A program made the position numbers and the translations under genes. From IMG/VR virus record IMGVR_UViG_3300037156_000291, positions 1-24,356 of that record: a stretch of 24,356 nucleotides of DNA. One strand, 5' to 3'. This DNA comes from a virus. Position 1 is the first letter of the stretch. Each line of letters opens with the position of its first letter. The notes under the pieces were generated by a model. The model saw only the letters and a program-made list of their open reading frames with translations. It had not been told where the DNA came from and ran no database searches. This document shows, piece after piece, positions 3,416 through 23,491 of the stretch.

Positions 3416-3901
3416 TTAGGCAGCCTTCTGCTTGGAGGCGGTGTAGTCCGCCGGGGTGATGGCCAGCTGGGCGCAAACGGCCAGCTCGGCCGGGGTGAGA
3501 GCGCCGGTTTCGATCTTGCCGGCTTCAGCGGCGGCAGCGGCAACGGCGGGATCGATGCCACCGGCCACGATCACCGGTGCAGCGGCAACCCATTGGCCAA
3601 AGCCGTCCGGGTTCTGGCTGGCGTAGGACAGCCCCCAGTCACGCATCGCCGGGGTCAGCTTGCCAGCCTTCGACGCGGCATTGACCAGGCTGCTGGCATG
3701 AGCGACGCTGGCGCTTTCGCGCAGCGTGCCGACCTGCGTCTGCAGTTCGGTGAACGCGGCCATCGGCACATAGAGCGACGGATCGGGCGCGCCGGTGGCG
3801 AGGGTGCGGTTGGCCTCGGCATGCGTCACAATCGCATCGACACTGACATCGCTGGCCAGGCCGAGTGCGGCGGCAAGGCGAGCTTGCAATAGCTTATCCA
3901 T
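3416..3901 (-). CDS. Possible internal in-frame scaffold start (Mu gpZ-like)
   Basis: An in-frame ATG at codon 170 of the I gene would yield a 161-residue protein starting MDKLLQARLAAALGL. GGAG lies about 11 bases upstream. Mu is known to make a scaffold protein (Z) from an internal start in I, in the same frame. The break between protease-like and helical Ala-rich parts falls at this point, and the preceding HHVQPGDSSP reads like a linker. The ribosome binding site is only moderate. Confidence 0.45.
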   Translation of the reverse strand: MDKLLQARLAAALGLASDVSVDAIVTHAEANRTLATGAPDPSLYVPMAAFTELQTQVGTLRESASVAHASSLVNAASKAGKLTPAMRDWGLSYASQNPDGFGQWVAAAPVIVAGGIDPAVAAAAAEAGKIETGALTPAELAVCAQLAITPADYTASKQKAA

Positions 3902-4408
3902 TGGGCTGGAGTCTCCGGGTTGAACATGGTGGGCAGAGATCGCGCGGAGCTGCGCGTTGATTGCGGGCAGCTCGGTCAAATTGGGGGCGTTCACCAGGCC
4001 GGCGCTGACCAGGCGTTCCACGCGGCCAGCCTTGTCATGCTTGAAAGCAGGACTGACGTAGCGGTATTCCTTGCTGGCCACGGCCAGGCGCCCGCGCTCG
4101 GTCCAATCGATATGACCCCAGATCGCGCCATCGCGCACGTCGAGCTGGTCGATCCATCCCGACGCCGGGCTTTCCTGGCCCTGCAGCGAAGCGAACACCG
4201 TCTGGTGATTGTAATCGAAGGCTAGCGGACGCCCGCTCTCCATCGATGCCGCGACGACGGCGGCAGGCCGATCGAGATTGTAAGGGCCGCGCCCATCGAC
4301 ACCGCGACTGACCCCTGCTGGCAGCAGCATCAGCCATTCGGGCACAGCGCCGTTCTCGCCGTTCGGCAGGATGGAGCAGACTTCCAGAAAGCTGACTTGG
4401 TGAGTCAT
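3416..4408 (-). CDS. I: Mu gpI-like head maturation protease with scaffold C-terminus
   Basis: The 330-residue protein matches the Mu I family, a prohead protease with a fused scaffold. The N-terminal half includes GPYNLDRPAAVVAASM, then PLAFDYNHQTVFA with the His-containing block typical of the family, then AAGWI-like PASGWIDQLDVRDGAIWGHIDWTERG. The YRYVSPAF motif follows near residue 117. The second half (from residue 170) is Ala-rich and helical, as expected for a scaffold. The ATG at 4408 lies 67 bases downstream of the PI-like element and is the first gene of the putative late transcript, as in Mu. Confidence 0.9.
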   Translation of the reverse strand: MTHQVSFLEVCSILPNGENGAVPEWLMLLPAGVSRGVDGRGPYNLDRPAAVVAASMESGRPLAFDYNHQTVFASLQGQESPASGWIDQLDVRDGAIWGHIDWTERGRLAVASKEYRYVSPAFKHDKAGRVERLVSAGLVNAPNLTELPAINAQLRAISAHHVQPGDSSPMDKLLQARLAAALGLASDVSVDAIVTHAEANRTLATGAPDPSLYVPMAAFTELQTQVGTLRESASVAHASSLVNAASKAGKLTPAMRDWGLSYASQNPDGFGQWVAAAPVIVAGGIDPAVAAAAAEAGKIETGALTPAELAVCAQLAITPADYTASKQKAA

Positions 4409-4427: not shown

Positions 4428-4455
4428 CAAGGGTGCGTCTATTGAGACACCCTTG
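4428..4455 (-). other. Leader stem-loop between PI-like element and gene I
   Basis: CAAGGGTG (4428-4435) pairs with CACCCTTG (4448-4455). The stem can be extended by TCT/AGA across a two-base bulge, leaving a four-base loop. It lies between the late-promoter-like repeat and the I start codon, so it would form near the 5' end of the I transcript. A similar stem occurs beside the second copy of the promoter repeat. It may protect the mRNA end or bind a regulator. Confidence 0.5.
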
Positions 4456-4474
4456 TGCAACGCCGCCTATCGCC

Positions 4475-4510
4475 CTGTATGGCTGAAACGCTTCAGGCAG
4501 AGCCCGCTAA
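4475..4510 (-). promoter_or_regulatory. Putative activator-dependent late promoter element (PI-like)
   Basis: This 36-base element has a near copy at 13749-13784. The first 23 bases match at 22 of 23 positions, and the remainder matches with one gap in each copy, ending in GCTAA on the plus strand. It contains the dyad CTGAA-N4-TTCAG. It lies 67 bases upstream of gene I, where Mu has its C-activated promoter PI. A weak -10 candidate (GATAGG on the minus strand, 4469-4464) lies just downstream and there is no good -35, as expected for an activator-dependent promoter. The likely activator is the Mor/C-family protein at 13790-14212. Confidence 0.65.
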
Positions 4511-4846
4511 GAGCGCCCGGCGCGCGCGCCCCACAAAGCCTCTGTAAGCCCCGTCCGCCGTCCTTGGCTACCCATGGCCGGATTTTCGCCGAGACCCACC
4601 TCTCAGTGGCCTCTCACGTCCCCCATTTTGCCGTTCGACCCGACCAGCCCGGTGACGATTGCACCAGGACGCGCATCAGGCAGGTCAGTTTGAACGCAGA
4701 GCCACCCTGCGGCGGCGCCGGGCGGATTGCAGTATCGCTTTGCAACGTTGCCGGTCAGCCACCTTGCGGTTGTCCGGGCGTAGCGATCCCATGCTGCGTT
4801 AGTGGGGGTCGGCCTATCTCCTACCGTCCTCACTCCGCGTTCAAAC
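4511..4846. other. Apparently non-coding gap between F and PI-like element
   Basis: No convincing gene fills this stretch. A minus-strand open frame of 94 codons (4603-4887) overlaps the end of F, uses several AGA and AGG codons unlike its neighbours, has no clear ribosome binding site and matches nothing I recognise. The plus-strand frame here is Cys/Pro/Arg-rich and looks like chance. In Mu gene G lies in this position, so the gap may mark its loss, since a G-family gene occurs at 955-1509 instead. Confidence 0.5.
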
Positions 4847-4887
4847 TCACCTGTCTGCGCTGCCCTCCCACACCGTCTCATAGCCAT
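4603..4887 (-). CDS. Doubtful 94-residue ORF between F and I
   Basis: The frame begins MAMRRCGRAAQTGEF and ends GSNGKMGDVRGH, with three Trp and four Cys residues. It overlaps the last 41 bases of the F gene in another frame. Codon use is atypical (AGA, AGG, ACA, GCA) and no Shine-Dalgarno sequence precedes it. It could be a recently acquired small gene or simply chance in a GC-rich gap. I list it because nothing else accounts for the region. Confidence 0.2.
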   Translation of the reverse strand: MAMRRCGRAAQTGEFERGVRTVGDRPTPTNAAWDRYARTTARWLTGNVAKRYCNPPGAAAGWLCVQTDLPDARPGAIVTGLVGSNGKMGDVRGH

Positions 4888-13134: not shown

Positions 13135-13695
13135 TCAAGCGTTGGCGCGGGCTATCCAGCCCTTCAGGAAGGTTTGGGAGGCGGGGCGCGCTTCGACGAT
13201 GCGCTCGTAATTCACGACCAGGGCGCGCTTGAGCCAGATCAGCAGGCGCACCGGATCGACCTTGTTGATGAGCGCGACGGTAGACGCGCCGATCGGGCCC
13301 GGCACCGCGCTACGCTGGCCATTGGCGACCAGCGCATTGCCGCAGATCCGGCCCATGCCCGTGGGGCCCAGATTGATCGACTCATCCAGCAGCTTGGCGG
13401 CGACCTTGGCGTCCAGCACCTGGTCCAGGCATTGCGGCAGCCAGACGAATTCGCGGTAGAACGCCACCGCGAACGGGCGGCTCATCTTGCGGATATCGTT
13501 CACATCGATGTGGCCATCATGGTCGACATCGAGGTCGAGGCCATCATGGACCAGCCCATAGCGATGCGCGAAGTCCTGCAGCGTCACCAGCGTGATGCCG
13601 AAATTGGTGGCGCCGCCCGGATCGCGCGGATCGTCGACATAGCCACCTTCGTGGCTGAGCGCGAAATCGATAGCTGCGGAGTAATTGTCGCCCAA
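13135..13695 (-). CDS. GH108 endolysin (lysozyme) with Ca-binding-type loop
   Basis: The 186-residue protein is a glycoside hydrolase family 108 muramidase. It has HEGGYVDDPRDPGGATNFGIT at residues 15-35, with E16 as the expected catalytic acid. An EF-hand-like loop at 56-67 (DVDHDGHIDVND) lies between the two halves. WLPQ, LLDESINLGPTG and a C-terminal peptidoglycan-binding-type helical region follow. The start is TTG 13695 with AGGGG about seven bases upstream, an unusual start that would lower expression. It is the first gene after the Plys-like element. It degrades peptidoglycan at the end of infection, helped by the membrane protein that follows. Confidence 0.93.
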   Translation of the reverse strand: MGDNYSAAIDFALSHEGGYVDDPRDPGGATNFGITLVTLQDFAHRYGLVHDGLDLDVDHDGHIDVNDIRKMSRPFAVAFYREFVWLPQCLDQVLDAKVAAKLLDESINLGPTGMGRICGNALVANGQRSAVPGPIGASTVALINKVDPVRLLIWLKRALVVNYERIVEARPASQTFLKGWIARANA

Positions 13696-13723
13696 GGCCA
13701 GGCCCCTGATGTGGTGGTCTGGC

Positions 13724-13749
13724 GCACCCTAGATGGGGCGATAGGGTGC
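13724..13749 (-). other. Leader stem-loop between Plys-like element and lysozyme
   Basis: GCACCCTA (13724-13731) pairs perfectly with TAGGGTGC (13742-13749) around a 10-base loop. It abuts the late-promoter-like repeat on its downstream side. A comparable stem with an AGGGTG/CACCCT core lies downstream of the PI-like element. No U-run follows, so a terminator for the Mor gene is not the best reading. Confidence 0.5.
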
Positions 13750-13784
13750 TGTATGGCTGAAAGGCTTCAGGTCAGAACGGCTAA
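13749..13784 (-). promoter_or_regulatory. Putative activator-dependent late promoter element (Plys-like)
   Basis: This is the second copy of the 36-base element described at 4475-4510. It begins five bases beyond the end of the Mor-like gene and lies 54 bases upstream of the lysozyme start. Mu places its C-dependent Plys in the same position. The dyad CTGAA-N4-TTCAG is kept exactly, while the four spacer bases differ by one. On the minus strand a CATACAG segment shared with the other copy follows the dyad. No good -35 hexamer is visible, as expected when an activator recruits polymerase. Confidence 0.65.
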
Positions 13785-13789
13785 TCTTT

Positions 13790-14212
13790 TCAGAATGGAA
13801 GGCTCATCTGGCGCGGGTCCGGCGTGGCGCGATCCTCGGCCAGGACGTAATAGACATTGCGCTCGGTCATGCCCAGCATCAGCGCGACATCGGCAATCTT
13901 GATGCCTTCCGCGCGCAGGCGCAAGACCCGGATGTGGCGGCGCATTTCGAGGGTGCGGCCCATGCGCGGAATGTCGATCCGCAGCAAGCCATCCCGCGCC
14001 GCACGATCAAAGATCGCACCGATGACATGACCGCCGACGACATCCAGCAGCGGACATTTGCGCCGCGATTTCGGACCCAACGAAATCCGCGTGCCGCCCA
14101 GCGTGGACACGATCTTGAGCATGATATCCTCGCCCACCGTCTCGATCAGCATGACCAGCGGCGCGGGCAGATAGCCGAACCGATCGCGATAGGAGGGATC
14201 GGCCTCAGCCAT
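13790..14212 (-). CDS. Mor/C-family late transcription activator
   Basis: The 140-residue protein fits the Mor transcription activator family: a helical dimerisation part (LVMLIETVGEDIMLKIVSTLGG), then RISLGPKSRRK and a C-terminal helix-turn-helix at about 95-125 (RAEGIKIADVALMLGMTERNVYYVL). Mor and C bind dyads as dimers and recruit RNA polymerase to middle and late promoters. Only one family member is seen here, so it probably drives late genes directly. ATG 14212 is used; a GTG nine bases upstream is possible, and neither has a good ribosome binding site. Its start overlaps the end of the Gp16-like gene. Confidence 0.92.
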   Translation of the reverse strand: MAEADPSYRDRFGYLPAPLVMLIETVGEDIMLKIVSTLGGTRISLGPKSRRKCPLLDVVGGHVIGAIFDRAARDGLLRIDIPRMGRTLEMRRHIRVLRLRAEGIKIADVALMLGMTERNVYYVLAEDRATPDPRQMSLPF

Positions 14213-14807
14213 GTTCGCCACGCACGGCTCGGCCTAGTATGGTGATCAAGCTGTCCAAATAGAGGCTATCGCGATTGTCGAGGGTAGCGCGCACACCCGG
14301 CAGGCGTTCATCGTAACGTGCTTCACGGCCGTTTTTTACGTCGATCAGGAAAATCTGCCGTTCAATCACGCACCGGCGCGGATCGGCATGCGCTGCCCAA
14401 TCCACGCCGAGTCGCACGCACCACTGCTTCAGCCCCTCGATCACCGCAAAGCTCTGCGATGGCCGCACAAAGGCCAGATCATCGACGTGGTGCTGGCGCT
14501 TCACCCAGGCGCGCAACGCCTTCTCAGAGGGGTCTGCGATCCCGCCCAGGGCATGGAGAGAGATCCACAGCGCCCGCGCTTTCTTCGCGGTCGGGCTGGT
14601 GGTCTTTGGCGGCGCAAAGCTGCGGCGATCCCGGCCACCGTTCATGTGATCCAGCACCTGGCGCAACTCGCCTTCCGACAGATCCTTGGCCGACGACTTT
14701 CCCGTCAGCCGCCCCAGCATCGCCCGATAGGTGTCCTCATCCAGATCGGTGGCCTTCTTCGCGGCATGCACCGCGCCGATCAGCCGGTTACGCTGCGGAG
14801 CGGCCAT
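14205..14807 (-). CDS. Gp16/GemA-like regulatory protein (DUF1018)
   Basis: The 200-residue protein opens with MAAPQRNRLIGAVHAAKKAT and continues LDEDTYRAMLGRLTGKSSAKDLSEGELRQVLDHM. This is the DUF1018/gp16 signature (K-x-L..D-x-Y-x-x-x-L...T...S-x-x-x-L-t-x-x-e-l). A C-terminal segment contains ALWISLHALGGIADPSEKALRAWVKRQ. Mu GemA (gp16) is reported to affect host gene expression and DNA gyrase. ATG 14807 has an ideal AGGAGG five bases upstream and replaces a longer frame that is a shadow. It is followed by the Mor-like gene, as in Mu. Confidence 0.9.
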   Translation of the reverse strand: MAAPQRNRLIGAVHAAKKATDLDEDTYRAMLGRLTGKSSAKDLSEGELRQVLDHMNGGRDRRSFAPPKTTSPTAKKARALWISLHALGGIADPSEKALRAWVKRQHHVDDLAFVRPSQSFAVIEGLKQWCVRLGVDWAAHADPRRCVIERQIFLIDVKNGREARYDERLPGVRATLDNRDSLYLDSLITILGRAVRGEHG

Positions 14808-15090
14808 GATCGCCTCCTGCTGAAAGGTCTTCTGCCACCACGCCGTCAAACTCCGCAGATACGCCGTTCCACGCGTCGATCGCCGCCTTGCTGCTAAGCT
14901 CGACAGCAAAATAGGCGAGCGGCTTGCGGGGGTCATAGGTGCTCGATCCGTCCTCATGGATCGGCGCACCCACGGGAAAATCGTTTACGCTGATGATGGC
15001 AAAACCCGGAGTGCCCACCGCCAATTTGCGCGCCTGTCCGGCGAGCCAGCGATCAAACACGCTCATGATCTGCATGCTACACTTGGCCAT
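14788..15090 (-). CDS. 100-residue early protein of unknown function
   Basis: The product starts MAKCSMQIMSVFDRWLAGQ and has a beta-type middle (GFAIISVNDFPVG) and a Tyr/Phe pair in LAYFAVELSSKAAIDAW. No family is recognised. ATG 15090 is preferred since GGGAGG lies six bases upstream, while the longer frame starts at TTG. It overlaps the Gp16-like gene by 20 bases and the upstream 57-residue gene by 14 bases, consistent with a tightly packed early operon. Confidence 0.65.
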   Translation of the reverse strand: MAKCSMQIMSVFDRWLAGQARKLAVGTPGFAIISVNDFPVGAPIHEDGSSTYDPRKPLAYFAVELSSKAAIDAWNGVSAEFDGVVAEDLSAGGDHGRSAA

Positions 15091-16890: not shown

Positions 16891-17868
16891 TTACGCGACC
16901 AGGGCATCGCCCAGCTGGTTGAAGGCCTTGGTGATCGACGCCTCGCTCAGCGCATCGCTGCCGTCACCGGCGGCTACGATCGAGGCGAGCTTCAGCGTCT
17001 TGGTCAGCACCCGCAGCGCGCCTGGACGCATCGCGATCTTCTGGACCAGGCGCATTACCTTGGGATCGATGATGCCCCAGGCTGAAGCCAGCAACGTCAC
17101 ATCCTCGGGCCGTGGCCGCGCCTGCTTCATGCGCATGCCAACCCGGCTGAACAGCTGAGCCAGATTGCCGTCGCGCCCCTTGCCCTCGATCCGGGTGAAG
17201 ACTGAAGGAGGCCCGACCAGCGCCAGCCCGCAATTCCACAGATCGTAAAACCGGCGCAGCTCTTCCAGCGCATTCGTTGTCAGATGCTGCGCCTCATCGA
17301 CGATGATCAGGGCCTGCCGCCCCTTCAGCTTCATGCCGATCGCGCGGCTGAGCTTGGACGTGAGCTTTTCCTCGACGCCCAGTACCATCGCTAATTCGGC
17401 CAGCATGTTGTGTGCGCTGCTGAGCGATGGGCAGCCCGTGATCAGGTAAACATTGGGATGCGTGCGCTGATATTCCTCCGACGCCGTTGTCTTGCCGACG
17501 CCAGGGCCGCAGGAGATCACCACGACATCGGGTGCACTTTGCGCAAAGGTCAGCAGCGAAGTGACCTGCCGCGCAGTCGTCGTCTCGATATACTTCGGCG
17601 CCGCCGCGATCGTGGCCACCGTCGCTGCCCGTTCGGCGCGTGATGCCAGCCACTGGCTGACCTGCCCGGCGATGCGGTGGGTGGGGGCGTCATAGGTTCC
17701 GCCTTTCCAGTTGGTGAAACTGCCAGGCGCAATGCCGGCTTCCTTGGCCATCGCGGCAAACGTCATGCCCTCGGCATGAAGCGCCATCACCGATGCCCGC
17801 AGATCATCCTCATTATATAGCGATTTTTGCTCTTCTGGTGCCGGAATTACTGCTGCTTCACTCATCAT
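16891..17868 (-). CDS. B: Transposition target-selection ATPase (MuB family)
   Basis: The 325-residue AAA+ protein has an N-terminal HTH-like part (about 23-55, MTFAAMAKEAGIAPGSFTNWKGG), a Walker A GPGVGKTT at 121-128 and a Walker B ALIIVDEAQH at 186-195. A sensor-like ALVGPPSVF follows, and the helical C-terminal region ends ALSEASITKAFNQLGDAL. MuB binds target DNA in an ATP-dependent way, stimulates MuA and directs insertion away from the phage itself. Tandem ATG codons at 17868 and 17865 are both possible; the second has better spacing from the GGGGG upstream. It follows the transposase gene by 28 bases. Confidence 0.95.
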   Translation of the reverse strand: MMSEAAVIPAPEEQKSLYNEDDLRASVMALHAEGMTFAAMAKEAGIAPGSFTNWKGGTYDAPTHRIAGQVSQWLASRAERAATVATIAAAPKYIETTTARQVTSLLTFAQSAPDVVVISCGPGVGKTTASEEYQRTHPNVYLITGCPSLSSAHNMLAELAMVLGVEEKLTSKLSRAIGMKLKGRQALIIVDEAQHLTTNALEELRRFYDLWNCGLALVGPPSVFTRIEGKGRDGNLAQLFSRVGMRMKQARPRPEDVTLLASAWGIIDPKVMRLVQKIAMRPGALRVLTKTLKLASIVAAGDGSDALSEASITKAFNQLGDALVA

Positions 17869-17896: not shown

Positions 17897-19885
17897 TCAG
17901 AAATTGTCGTCCCGCTCGACCAGCGACAGGCCCTTCTGGAAACTTGCCAGGAACGCGTCCTGGTCGTGCGCCTGCTCGGTCGCCGTCACTTCCATCGCCG
18001 CAAGCGCAGCCGATCCATTGGTGCGGAACACATGCTGGATAACGACATGCTCGGTCTCTGGCGGTTCGCTGGTCGGCGGCGCAGGCAGCAGCTTGGCCAT
18101 CTGCAGCGCGCTCATCGAGCGCTCGGCTTCCAGCATGACCTTGCCGGCGCGCATATGCAGCGCGCGCTGGCGGGCATGTTCGCGGGCCGCGGCAACATCG
18201 TCGAAGCCCTTGGCTTCCATCACCAGTGCAAAGCCCAGATACCGCTCCGCCGTGTCATAGATGGACACCCCGGCATGCACGTTCTGCGGATCGAACCGCA
18301 CGATCAGCTTTTCGCCGGCATGCTGGCTCAGCCACCCATCCCAGAATGTGTTGTCCAGGATCTTGACCGAGCCATCCTTGCGGTGTGCGCTGATCCCCTC
18401 GGCAGCCAGCCGCCATTGCCGCATCATCGCCTCGCTGGCCTGGTGGATCAGCGTGCCGTTCGCCGCATAGCTCTCGGCAAACACCGCATCGAACGACCGG
18501 CCTTTAGCCACATCGGTGCGCCGTCCCTCGCGGGCGTTCCAGGCATGGATTTCCTGGCCCGCGATCCGCACGAAATCATCGAATGGCACCGCCGCGTTGC
18601 CGTAATTTTCCGGCTTGGCCATTGGGCTGTTGCCGACATAGGCCCCGGCAAAGGCCGGATGCTTGGCGATATCGCCGGCCATATCGCGAAACGACCGCTC
18701 GATCGGCTTCGACTGTCCCGAATAGGGCAGGGTGAAATGCACGCCGATCCCCATCGCCTCGCACAGCCCGATCGGGTCTTCCTCGCGGATCGTGAAGCGG
18801 AACCGCCATTTGGCGCCGGCAGTCAGGGCCTTGTTGGCAAAGGCGCGGGTATTATCGAAGTATATCTTGCCCGGAATGCCGAACTGTTCGACCACGTCGC
18901 CCAGTGCCAGCCGGATCGCATCCTTGTTTTCGCTGCGGTCGAACCGCCAAGCCAGCATCTTGTTTGAATACAGATCCTGCAACGCCACCATCATCGGGCG
19001 CCCGATAGTGCCATCGGGAAACTTGACGAAAACATCCCACTTGTGACCGTCGCCGTTGATCGCTTCCAGCGCATGAAAGTGGGACCGGTCCCGCTTCATC
19101 GGCGGCATCGTCGCCTTCAGGGCCGATAAGCCCTCGCGTGCCAGCACCAGCACCGTGCGGTGGATCGTGCGCTCGATCTTGCGGCCGATCGTCTTCTCGT
19201 GCGGCAGCTGCCAGCCATGCTGCTCTGCACTGCGCTGCAGGCGACGATAGCAGGCCGACAGCGTCGGCGCTTCCAGGCGCAGATAATCCGCCTTGAACAA
19301 TTCCCAGGCATCGGGCTCCAGCTCGGCACCGGCGCCGCCACCGGCATGCGCAGGTGCCAGCGCCGGCAGCCAGTTGTGCCGGTCAATCCCCGCTACGGCT
19401 GAAAACCAGCGCCATATCGAGCGCGGCGAAACCTTCTTTTCGCCCATCGAACTGACCAGTGCGACCGCGACATCGCGGGTGTGACCATGGTCGACCAGGG
19501 CTTCGACCTGGCGCAACATATCCTCGCGCTCTTTTGCCTTGGCCTTGGCTTGGGCTGGCTGACGATCGTACCATTCCCAGTCCTGCTGGCTCTGCAGCGC
19601 CGCGCGCTGCGCTGGCGCCGGTTCAGTCCCGGTAGCCGCCTCGCCGCAGACGATCATCACCTTGACCTGCGCATCTGCACCCAGCAGCGACAGGTGATAT
19701 TCCACCCCGCCGCCGCGCCCGGTGCGCTTGCGCCAAATCCCTTTTGGGTTGCTCGCCGCATCCCACGCGCGGTCGGGATCGTTCCAGCCCATGCGCTCGG
19801 AAAAGCGCAGCAAAGCCGTGCGATTGCTCGGCATCCCCGGCAGCGTCATGGCGGCCAATTCAGCGGCGGTGAACCATTGCTTCAT
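17897..19885 (-). CDS. A: DDE transposase (MuA family)
   Basis: The 662-residue protein starts MKQWFTAAELAAMTLPGMP, the Mu domain I winged-helix entry (enhancer binding). Iβ/Iγ-type DNA-binding regions follow. The catalytic core contains INGDGHKWDVFV (D279), IYFDNTRAFA (D344) and YSGQSKPIERSF (E396), close to Mu D269, D336 and E392. The C-terminal part has the beta barrel and ends with an acidic tail near ERDDNF. It excises, inserts and replicates the phage. ATG 19885 lies five bases after the preceding stop; a GTG 21 bases upstream is an alternative. Confidence 0.97.
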   Translation of the reverse strand: MKQWFTAAELAAMTLPGMPSNRTALLRFSERMGWNDPDRAWDAASNPKGIWRKRTGRGGGVEYHLSLLGADAQVKVMIVCGEAATGTEPAPAQRAALQSQQDWEWYDRQPAQAKAKAKEREDMLRQVEALVDHGHTRDVAVALVSSMGEKKVSPRSIWRWFSAVAGIDRHNWLPALAPAHAGGGAGAELEPDAWELFKADYLRLEAPTLSACYRRLQRSAEQHGWQLPHEKTIGRKIERTIHRTVLVLAREGLSALKATMPPMKRDRSHFHALEAINGDGHKWDVFVKFPDGTIGRPMMVALQDLYSNKMLAWRFDRSENKDAIRLALGDVVEQFGIPGKIYFDNTRAFANKALTAGAKWRFRFTIREEDPIGLCEAMGIGVHFTLPYSGQSKPIERSFRDMAGDIAKHPAFAGAYVGNSPMAKPENYGNAAVPFDDFVRIAGQEIHAWNAREGRRTDVAKGRSFDAVFAESYAANGTLIHQASEAMMRQWRLAAEGISAHRKDGSVKILDNTFWDGWLSQHAGEKLIVRFDPQNVHAGVSIYDTAERYLGFALVMEAKGFDDVAAAREHARQRALHMRAGKVMLEAERSMSALQMAKLLPAPPTSEPPETEHVVIQHVFRTNGSAALAAMEVTATEQAHDQDAFLASFQKGLSLVERDDNF

Positions 19886-19890
19886 CGGGC

Positions 19891-20133
19891 TCAATCCCTC
19901 AGCCACCAGCTCGTGGGGCGCTCACCCGGCTCAGCCGGCGCGGCGATGGCGCCGATCGGCGCCGACATCTTCGCCGCCAACCGCTTACTGGCCTCGCGTG
20001 ACCGCTCCATCGCCGCTTCATGCCGCAGCTTTTCCTCAGCCTCGCGCGGCGTGATGCCCAGCTGCTGTGCCATCGCGAAAGCGGCGGCATGCTGACGCCA
20101 GCGCTCGGCCTGTGTCGAAAGGGGTAATGTCAT
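19891..20133 (-). CDS. Small helical protein upstream of the transposase
   Basis: The 80-residue protein is charged and helical (QAERWRQHAAAFAMAQQ, then LGITPREAEEKLRHEAAMER). A Pro/Ala linker follows and it ends SWWLRD. No family is recognised. Its ATG overlaps the preceding stop (ATGA) and its stop precedes the transposase ATG by five bases. The position suggests a helper for transposition or simply operon filler. Confidence 0.65.
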   Translation of the reverse strand: MTLPLSTQAERWRQHAAAFAMAQQLGITPREAEEKLRHEAAMERSREASKRLAAKMSAPIGAIAAPAEPGERPTSWWLRD

Positions 20134-21864: not shown

Positions 21865-22475
21865 TAGCTTGCGCCGTTTGAACGGTGCGCATCGCGTTTT
21901 GCTGCGGTATCAGCAGGGCGAAGTTTCTCGCTGCGGTGATTCTCCGCAGCCCGATGAAGGGCCTGGCACAATGGATCTGAGCAAATATGAACAGCAGGCA
22001 AAAATTGATGCCGCTTGGTGGCTAGCGCGTCTTGAAAAATATGATGCTCTAGTCGTGCTAGCTGTTGCCGAAAAAATATCCGAAGGTCACAGTCCATGTG
22101 AAAATCTGGATCACGAAGTGTCTGTACAAGATCTTCTATCCTTGCCTTATAAACAGCGTCTTTCTCGGATAGATAAATTATCTCTTCCCGATCGGATTGG
22201 CGTATTGCTTCATGCATGGCGTCATGTGCGCGGCGCTCAGCTTCTTCTTCGGCAGATGGCGCTGTACAATCTGACAACCCCTGAGAAGGAGCTTTCTCCT
22301 CGGGGGCCGCTGGACCCATATCGCGGCCCGTTTCTTGGTCGGGTAGGGGAAGCAGCGATTGCGGTCCGTGAAGGATTTCCTGAGCTTTGGACTCTGTATG
22401 GTGTTGATGACCGTGCGATTGAGGTGATTGACCCACCTCGCCCGTGGCCTGCAGGCTGACTTCCGCGTCACTCAT
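21864..22475 (-). CDS. Unknown 203-residue early protein; opposite strand also open
   Basis: The frame begins MSDAEVSLQATGEV and is hydrophilic, with a His/Gln-rich start, EEEAERRAHDAMHEAIRQ, then IYLSEKDAVYKARIEDLVQTL, and a basic tail. Its ATG overlaps the Ner/Cro-like stop (ATGA), and its TAA overlaps the next ATG (TAATG), which fits the early operon. However, a plus-strand frame (21809-22459) is open over the same stretch and looks equally protein-like. Counting 162 plus-strand codons gave about 72, 42 and 41% GC at positions 1, 2 and 3, symmetric for both readings. Coupling decides for minus. The stretch is more AT-rich than its neighbours. Confidence 0.55.
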   Translation of the reverse strand: MSDAEVSLQATGEVGQSPQSHGHQHHTESKAQEILHGPQSLLPLPDQETGRDMGPAAPEEKAPSQGLSDCTAPSAEEEAERRAHDAMHEAIRQSDREEIIYLSEKDAVYKARIEDLVQTLRDPDFHMDCDLRIFFRQQLARLEHHIFQDALATKRHQFLPAVHICSDPLCQALHRAAENHRSEKLRPADTAAKRDAHRSNGAS

Positions 22476-22735
22476 TTATCATTCCTCTTTGCCGCGGCAC
22501 GACGGCCACGGGGGGTATCTTCAGGGTAGATGTCGGGGCGCAGCAGGTGGCGGGAGACGCCCGTGGCGGCTTCAACGCGCAGCACGTACTCAGCCGGCAG
22601 GCGCCGGGATTTGGATTGGTTGATCCAGCGCCAGACAGTTGGTTGGCTGACGCCTAAATCGACAGCCATGGCGTTCTCAGAGCCATAAATGTCGCATGCG
22701 GTCACGAGCGCTTCGAGGGGACTGGGGGACTTCAT
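22472..22735 (-). CDS. Ner/Cro-like helix-turn-helix regulator
   Basis: The 87-residue protein has a YdaS/Cro-type HTH at about 20-50: SENAMAVDLGVSQPTVWRWIN, followed by LPAEYVLRVEAATGVSRHLLRPDIYP. The basic tail is RRAAAKRNDK. It is transcribed divergently from the repressor, as Ner is in Mu, and probably tunes the early promoter. AAGGG lies a few bases before the ATG. The first operator (22747-22762) is only 12 bases from its start. Its stop overlaps the next gene (ATGA). Confidence 0.88.
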   Translation of the reverse strand: MKSPSPLEALVTACDIYGSENAMAVDLGVSQPTVWRWINQSKSRRLPAEYVLRVEAATGVSRHLLRPDIYPEDTPRGRRAAAKRNDK

Positions 22736-22744
22736 TTGTCCCTT

Positions 22745-22771
22745 CTAATACGTTTTCGTATTAGCCGTCAA
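22745..22771 (-). promoter_or_regulatory. Candidate early promoter
   Basis: On the minus strand TTGACG (22771-22766) could be a -35 box. TATTAG (22750-22745) would be the -10 box with a short 15-base spacer, or TTAGAA with 17. The -10 lies in the first operator and the -35 in the gap and second operator, so repressor binding would block it. The exact boxes are uncertain. Confidence 0.45.
22747..22762. promoter_or_regulatory. Operator O1
   Basis: Perfect dyad AATACG-TTTT-CGTATT between the divergent repressor and Ner/Cro-like genes. It is the first of three units whose starts are 23 bp apart (22747, 22770, 22793). Confidence 0.75.
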
Positions 22772-22785
22772 TACGCAAACGCTAA
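22770..22785. promoter_or_regulatory. Operator O2 (degenerate)
   Basis: Left half AATACG and central CAAA are followed by CG, but the rest of the right half is altered (CGCTAA, with TAATT one base later). It lies exactly 23 bp from both flanking units, which supports it as a weaker site of the same array. Confidence 0.6.
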
Positions 22786-22792
22786 TTCCCTC

Positions 22793-22808
22793 AATACGAG
22801 ACCGTATT
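22793..22808. promoter_or_regulatory. Operator O3
   Basis: Perfect dyad AATACG-AGAC-CGTATT. It ends two bases before the ATG at 22811 and contains part of a TATTAT -10-like box, so occupancy probably shuts down the repressor gene itself. Confidence 0.75.
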
Positions 22809-22810
22809 AT

Positions 22811-23491
22811 ATGGAGGTCGTGTCAGATCATCGGATTGATAAATTTCGGCTGTCTCAGCTCATTCAAAAGGCTGGATTTACCCATGCGGAGCTGGCGCGC
22901 CGGGTCGGCGTCCAGCAGCCAACAATCACGCGTCTGGCGACAGGAGAGCAGGCTGGCTCTAAACACCTTCACAAGATCGCCCGCGAACTTGGCACCTCGC
23001 CAGCCTATTTGATGGGCGATGGCGACGATCCCAGCGAAGGCTATGTGCCCGCGCCGTCGTTCGAAGCGATGGCAGATGAGCTGGGCCTCATTCCGATACC
23101 CCAGCTCGACCTGGGCTTCGGCATGGGTGCGACGTTCCTTGATGTGCCGGTGACCGAGAATGTGCGCCACTTCCCGCGCGATTGGGTGCGCCAGTACACC
23201 CATGCCGCGCCCGACAAGCTGATGTTCGTCCAGGGCGTCGGTGACTCGATGTTTCCGACGCTGCTCGACAGCGATACGCTGCTCATCGACTGCTCGGTGC
23301 AGGTGATGACAATGGCCGATCGGATCTGGGCCTGCACCTATTGCGGCATGGGGATGATCAAACGCCTGCGGCCGACCAACGATGGCGGCATGCGCATCAT
23401 GTCCGACAATCCCAACGTCAGCGAGAATATCGCTTATGACGGCGAACTGCAGCTGCTAGGCCGCGTCGTCGGCGTGTTCAGGAAGATGTGA
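22811..23491 (+). CDS. Phage repressor, HTH plus S24/LexA-like domain
   Basis: The 226-residue protein has an HTH at about 13-60 (QLIQKAGFTHAELARRVGVQ, QPTITRLATGE), a linker, and an S24 peptidase-fold domain. That domain has S146 in QGVGDSMFPTLLDSD and K184 in GMIKRLRP, the expected Ser/Lys pair. The usual Ala-Gly cleavage site is not obvious; the region has LGFGMGATFLD, so self-cleavage is uncertain. It maintains lysogeny by binding the adjacent operators. ATG 22811 lacks a Shine-Dalgarno and GTG 22820 has GGAGG too close, so a leaderless mRNA is possible. Confidence 0.93.
   Translation: MEVVSDHRIDKFRLSQLIQKAGFTHAELARRVGVQQPTITRLATGEQAGSKHLHKIARELGTSPAYLMGDGDDPSEGYVPAPSFEAMADELGLIPIPQLDLGFGMGATFLDVPVTENVRHFPRDWVRQYTHAAPDKLMFVQGVGDSMFPTLLDSDTLLIDCSVQVMTMADRIWACTYCGMGMIKRLRPTNDGGMRIMSDNPNVSENIAYDGELQLLGRVVGVFRKM

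Follow-up and report, generated by a model that had tools for sequence, protein, structure and literature searches.

What is the role of a 36-base element that stands twice among the late genes of a Mu-like virus, and which protein, if any, acts on it? The stretch of DNA analysed here, a 24,356-base IMG/VR virus record hereafter denoted the window, carries a Mu-like gene order on its minus strand: MuA (17897-19906), MuB (16891-17868), a DUF3164 gene, GemA (14205-14969), a Mor/C-like late activator gene encoding 140 amino acids (13790-14212), a lysozyme gene (GH108 endolysin; 13135-13695; Pfam PF05838, 3.4e-17; phrog_315), the portal and F-like protein genes, gene I for the head maturation protease (3416-4408; Pfam PF10123, 1.7e-64; phrog_328), and the major head protein gene. 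The Mor-like and I proteins of a second record, IMGVR_UViG_3300050132_000322, are identical to those of the window. Between the F-like gene and gene I there is also a 25-nt inverted repeat (4677-4701 / 4833-4857; 88% complementary), overlapped by a 94-aa minus-strand ORF (4603-4887) with no family match.

The two copies of the element lie at 4475-4510 and 13749-13784, each reading CTGAAGCNTTTCAGCCATACAG on the minus strand, which is the functional strand. The first-pass annotation had described a 36-base repeat with copies 9.2 kb apart, agreeing at 22 of the first 23 bases, with no other copy seen; both copies were recovered at these coordinates with that agreement, and a search of the window allowing up to three mismatches returned exactly these two places, one upstream of gene I and one upstream of the lysozyme gene. 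The 22-mer CTGTATGGCTGAAANGCTTCAG likewise matched only 4475-4496 and 13749-13770 in the window (≤3 mismatches), and gave no match in 100 dinucleotide shuffles. The lysozyme copy occupies the gap that separates the Mor-like ORF from the lysozyme gene, whilst the other ends 75 bases ahead of the gene I start, so that the proposed placement before I and before lys on the late strand, as for PI and Plys of Mu, holds. Within both copies there is an exact dyad, CTGAA-N4-TTCAG. The PI dyad, CTGAAGCGTTTCAG (4483-4496, minus strand), is a candidate Mor/C-type activator site that is also found upstream of I in two other loci (G001 and L025); the Plys dyad, CTGAAGCCTTTCAG (13757-13770, minus strand), follows the Mor-like ORF at a distance of 20 nt.

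The element is the top-scoring same-strand repeat of the whole window (score 20 under +1/-2 scoring; next 18), a margin that makes the repeat by itself notable, not overwhelming. As a plain repeat it thus tops the list narrowly, as might a functionless duplicated stretch left by chance or recombination; the case for the element rests on its position and its dyad, beyond the repeat score. In G001, a 34.5-kb record whose I protease and Mor-like protein are respectively 71% and 69% identical to those of the window, CCTGAAGNNTTTCAGCCAGAC occurs twice, 9.6 kb apart, behind the Mor-like gene and before I, with the core alone conserved; the search of related Mu-like genomes for the element, suggested in the first-pass annotation, gave a pair at the same two places. 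The outer GCTAA, described earlier as a kept part, is present in both window copies and absent from G001, and is probably not part of the element. Since G001 has the same two places, and since many phages have the same layout with other arms, a chance repeat or recombination scar is refuted in practice by conservation in relatives, and we give it almost no credence. No third near-consensus copy in the expected orientation was seen in the 34.5 kb of G001; a PP-like promoter with the same site is thus not seen there, and a diverged one may be present.

In Mu-like loci with a Mor-like gene, the DNA following that gene was compared with the DNA preceding I. Many Mu-like phages carry a 14-bp dyad (5-4-5) of their own at both places, immediately after the Mor-like gene and upstream of I, and in several loci phage-specific dyads are common to the two stretches, for example CTGACAGGTGTCAG (L021), CCGAC-N4-GTCGG (L011), CGGAC-N4-GTCCG (L023) and CGGAA-N4-TTCCG (L058). 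Mor-like genes were then taken from bacterial genomes and dyad pairs were searched with neither arm sequence nor promoter preset. Of 80 loci, 21 had a pair of a post-Mor and a distal dyad scoring at least 22, compared with 1.7% of 2209 control windows drawn from those loci; by this strict search roughly three in four of the Mor-bearing loci yielded no pair. In many of the loci with a pair, the ORF after the proximal copy resembles a cell-wall-acting enzyme in sequence, and that after the distal copy a Mu-like I protease, with profiles run for some. A genome scan with two Mor proteins returned nothing usable, and tblastn of Mor in named phages one weak match only. One locus (L034) has a long common stretch, GCAACTGTGAAATAAGCC, behind a weak Mor-like gene and before I, with no 5-4-5 dyad.

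Across 40 sites from 20 of these loci, the -10-like pattern NAnnnT has its first base at an offset of exactly 26 from the dyad in 31 (77.5%), whereas at other offsets in the same sites its mean frequency is 2.9% and its maximum 10%. The dyad pairs of these sites were found without using the -10; one locus with CTGGC arms (L191), which passed the dyad score and failed the -10 pattern, was afterwards excluded from both counts, that of the -10 and that of the covariation, which slightly favours the result. At Plys the candidate -10 is TAGGGT (13726-13731, minus strand, offset 26-31 behind the dyad) and at PI it is the weak CACAAG (4452-4457, minus strand, same offset), which has three of six matches, retaining the A of NAnnnT and missing the T; a -10 hexamer approximately 31-33 bases behind the dyad centre is present at Plys, as in the 31 sites, whereas PI has CACAAG only. 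The PI hexamer is poor in the window and its closest relatives alike (CACAAG, AACAAG in G001, and GAGATC), and PI is accordingly the less certain of the two promoters. Neither copy has a recognisable -35 (at most three of six matches to TTGACA at 16-18 bp spacing). Late transcripts are predicted to start at 13719 for Plys and, from the Mor geometry with the site centred at -43.5 (PMC4390567), at 4445 for PI, both on the minus strand. The predicted leaders are 24 nt for the lysozyme gene, which has a TTG start and AGGGG in its leader, and 37 nt for gene I.

Two side observations concern the same region. The inverted repeats CAAGGGTG...CACCCTTG (4428-4455) and GCACCCTA...TAGGGTGC (13724-13749) overlap both candidate -10 regions. 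In 14 of the 40 sites an ATG follows the dyad at a distance of 37-39 bases, compared with a mean of 1.7 and a maximum of 7 in other 3-nt windows, the loci with the ATG being L132, L137, L141, L155, L023, L180, L185, L197, L203 and L206; an ATG right at the predicted transcription start suggests leaderless late mRNAs there, from which the window genes differ in their predicted leaders.

The dyad might instead act as RNA, forming a terminator or leader hairpin between operons, given that one copy comes directly after the Mor-like gene and the other falls in the gap preceding I, with further hairpins nearby (4428-4455 and 13724-13749). We regard this as highly improbable: the stem is 5 bp and lacks a U run, the two copies agree at bases within and next to the spacer, the distance to the -10 hexamer is fixed, and the arms track a DNA-binding helix, as described below.

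The protein expected to act on the dyads as a promoter site is encoded at 13790-14212, the only Mor/C gene in the window. Its match to phrog_836 (late transcriptional activator; 7.7e-17) spans residues 14-138, and it aligns with Mu Mor and C, sharing a GG motif and a C-terminal helix-turn-helix; Pfam at a threshold of 0.001 gave no match. The AlphaFold2 model has a mean pLDDT of 73, and its best PDB match is Mor (1rr7), albeit a weak one (E = 0.33), with Mor in complex with RNA polymerase (9l0y) ranking fourth. The secondary structure of this model, together with the alignment and the covariation, places the recognition helix at residues 117-127 (13832-13864, minus strand), within which R118, Y121 and Y122 are proposed as base readers. 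A single Mor/C gene was seen in the window, in G001 and in each of four further virus records, which suggests a one-step early-to-late cascade, bearing in mind that the records may be fragments.

Comparison of aligned recognition helices, described by the pattern xxR-a-b-c-d, with the dyads of the same phages revealed that phages with Arg at position d have C as the inner arm base and those with another residue there have A, which held in all 25 phages and in both of two added later (27/27). In the 25-phage set these changes coincide at several points of the tree, although close relatives are included (L147 and L148 are 83% identical), so that the counts are not all independent. Predictions were written before looking in three rounds, leaving 18 of the 27 phages blind; the inner base was right in 10/10, 6/6 and 2/2 by round, and the second arm base in 8/10, 5/6 and 0/2 (13/18, wrong in five). 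The second position is only partly predictable from the helix, with Glu at position c accompanying C at arm position 2 in all six cases. Only two loci passed the filter in the third round, position 2 being wrong in both; L220 (CTGAA) agrees with the rule and was left uncounted because it did not pass the -10 filter, whilst L207 came from an earlier score that included the -10 and not from the dyad-only list. Many loci with no pair were left out of the covariation, and exceptions could be hidden among them. In a further case, single and noticed afterwards, the Arg of the other proteins corresponds to Asn in Mu Mor, and the G of their sites to A in the Mu site.

This covariation bears on the possibility that the dyads are instead operators through which the phage repressor or Ner silences lys and I in the prophage. 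A short exact dyad is of the type bound by helix-turn-helix repressors, and repressor-like and Ner-like ORFs are present at 22472-23491. A repressor operator is nonetheless very unlikely in our view, since the early control region has no copy nearby (≤3 mismatches), the arms change in step with the recognition helix of the Mor-like protein, and the distance from dyad to -10 fits an activator site and not an overlap with the core promoter.

The element is, very probably, the operator of two σ70-type activator-dependent late promoters, Plys and PI, worked by the 13790-14212 protein. The earlier proposal of a late-promoter role with a Mor/C specificity of its own gains support, at the level of sequence comparison, from conservation at both places in G001, the phage-specific dyads elsewhere, the -10 at a fixed distance, and the helix covariation. 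In the mechanism that we propose, the early operon would make the activator, a dimer of which would bind the two 5-bp arms CTGAA/TTCAG and stand in for the missing -35 contact, such that host RNA polymerase would start approximately 38 nt downstream of the dyad and the lysis and head/tail operons would presumably be turned on together. Each related phage would pair its own dyad with its own activator through the recognition helix. We favour, with rather less assurance, the broader reading that the Mor/C helix xxR-a-b-c-d is a readable DNA code, in which G at arm position 3 is recognised by the conserved Arg, the inner base by d (C if Arg, A for any other residue) and position 2 by c together with a (C if c is Glu); each phage would then keep an activator-operator pair of its own, confined to two late promoters, and related phages in one cell would not cross-activate.

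The closest known system is the Pm promoter of Mu, where two inverted repeats of 5 bp, centred at -43.5 and occupied by a Mor dimer, take the place of a -35 (PMC4390567, PMC4287176). Primer coordinates from the former place the Mor site at 674-689 of the Mu locus (L090), 3 nt behind the mor stop. Pm and the window promoters share an activator of one family, two 5-bp inverted repeats, a -10 (weak at PI) lacking a -35, and, for Plys, a site just behind the activator gene. They differ in that the Pm site is AGTAA-N6-TTAAT, with a 6-bp spacer (4 bp in the window) and four of five bases paired, that its -10 is approximately 2 bp closer, and that Mor drives the middle promoter for C whereas the window promoter would directly drive lysozyme. 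The likeness to Plys and PI of Mu lies in location (one site following the activator gene and preceding lys, the other preceding I) and in the use, proposed for the window, of one activator for both (PMC4461284). Mu, however, also has PP, Pmom and a separate Mor step, in contrast to the single Mor/C gene of the window and to the 34.5 kb of G001, in which no third copy of the element was seen. The Mu lys and I promoters have only short matches in common, and a scan of the Mu late promoters for a 5-4-5 dyad gave no clear site and did not recover the Mu C sites.

Promoters dependent on Mor/C are a known kind, and the family record of late transcriptional activators that the window protein matches (PHROG 836) carries no DNA specificity. 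A literature search, confined mostly to papers outside subscription and hence weak evidence of novelty, returned no account of paired dyads, of the helix-arm relation or of a recognition code for the Mor/C family; as far as the literature found goes, Mor/C specificity has been worked out for Mu only. The approximately 27 natural activator-operator pairs make site choice testable by swaps of single residues against single bases, and the paired dyads offer a route from sequence alone to the late promoters of uncharacterised Mu-like phages.

The arrangement of Mor-like genes also varies among the loci. Two tandem copies are present in L182 and at G829:C1:1532106-1533042; in L229, L231 and L233-L236 the Mor-like match lies within an ORF that ends in a common tail of the CPCCGRxYKLTPP type; and in L060, L061, L063, L066, L067 and L068 the Mor-like gene lies directly upstream of I, at a few tens of bases, and not before lysozyme.
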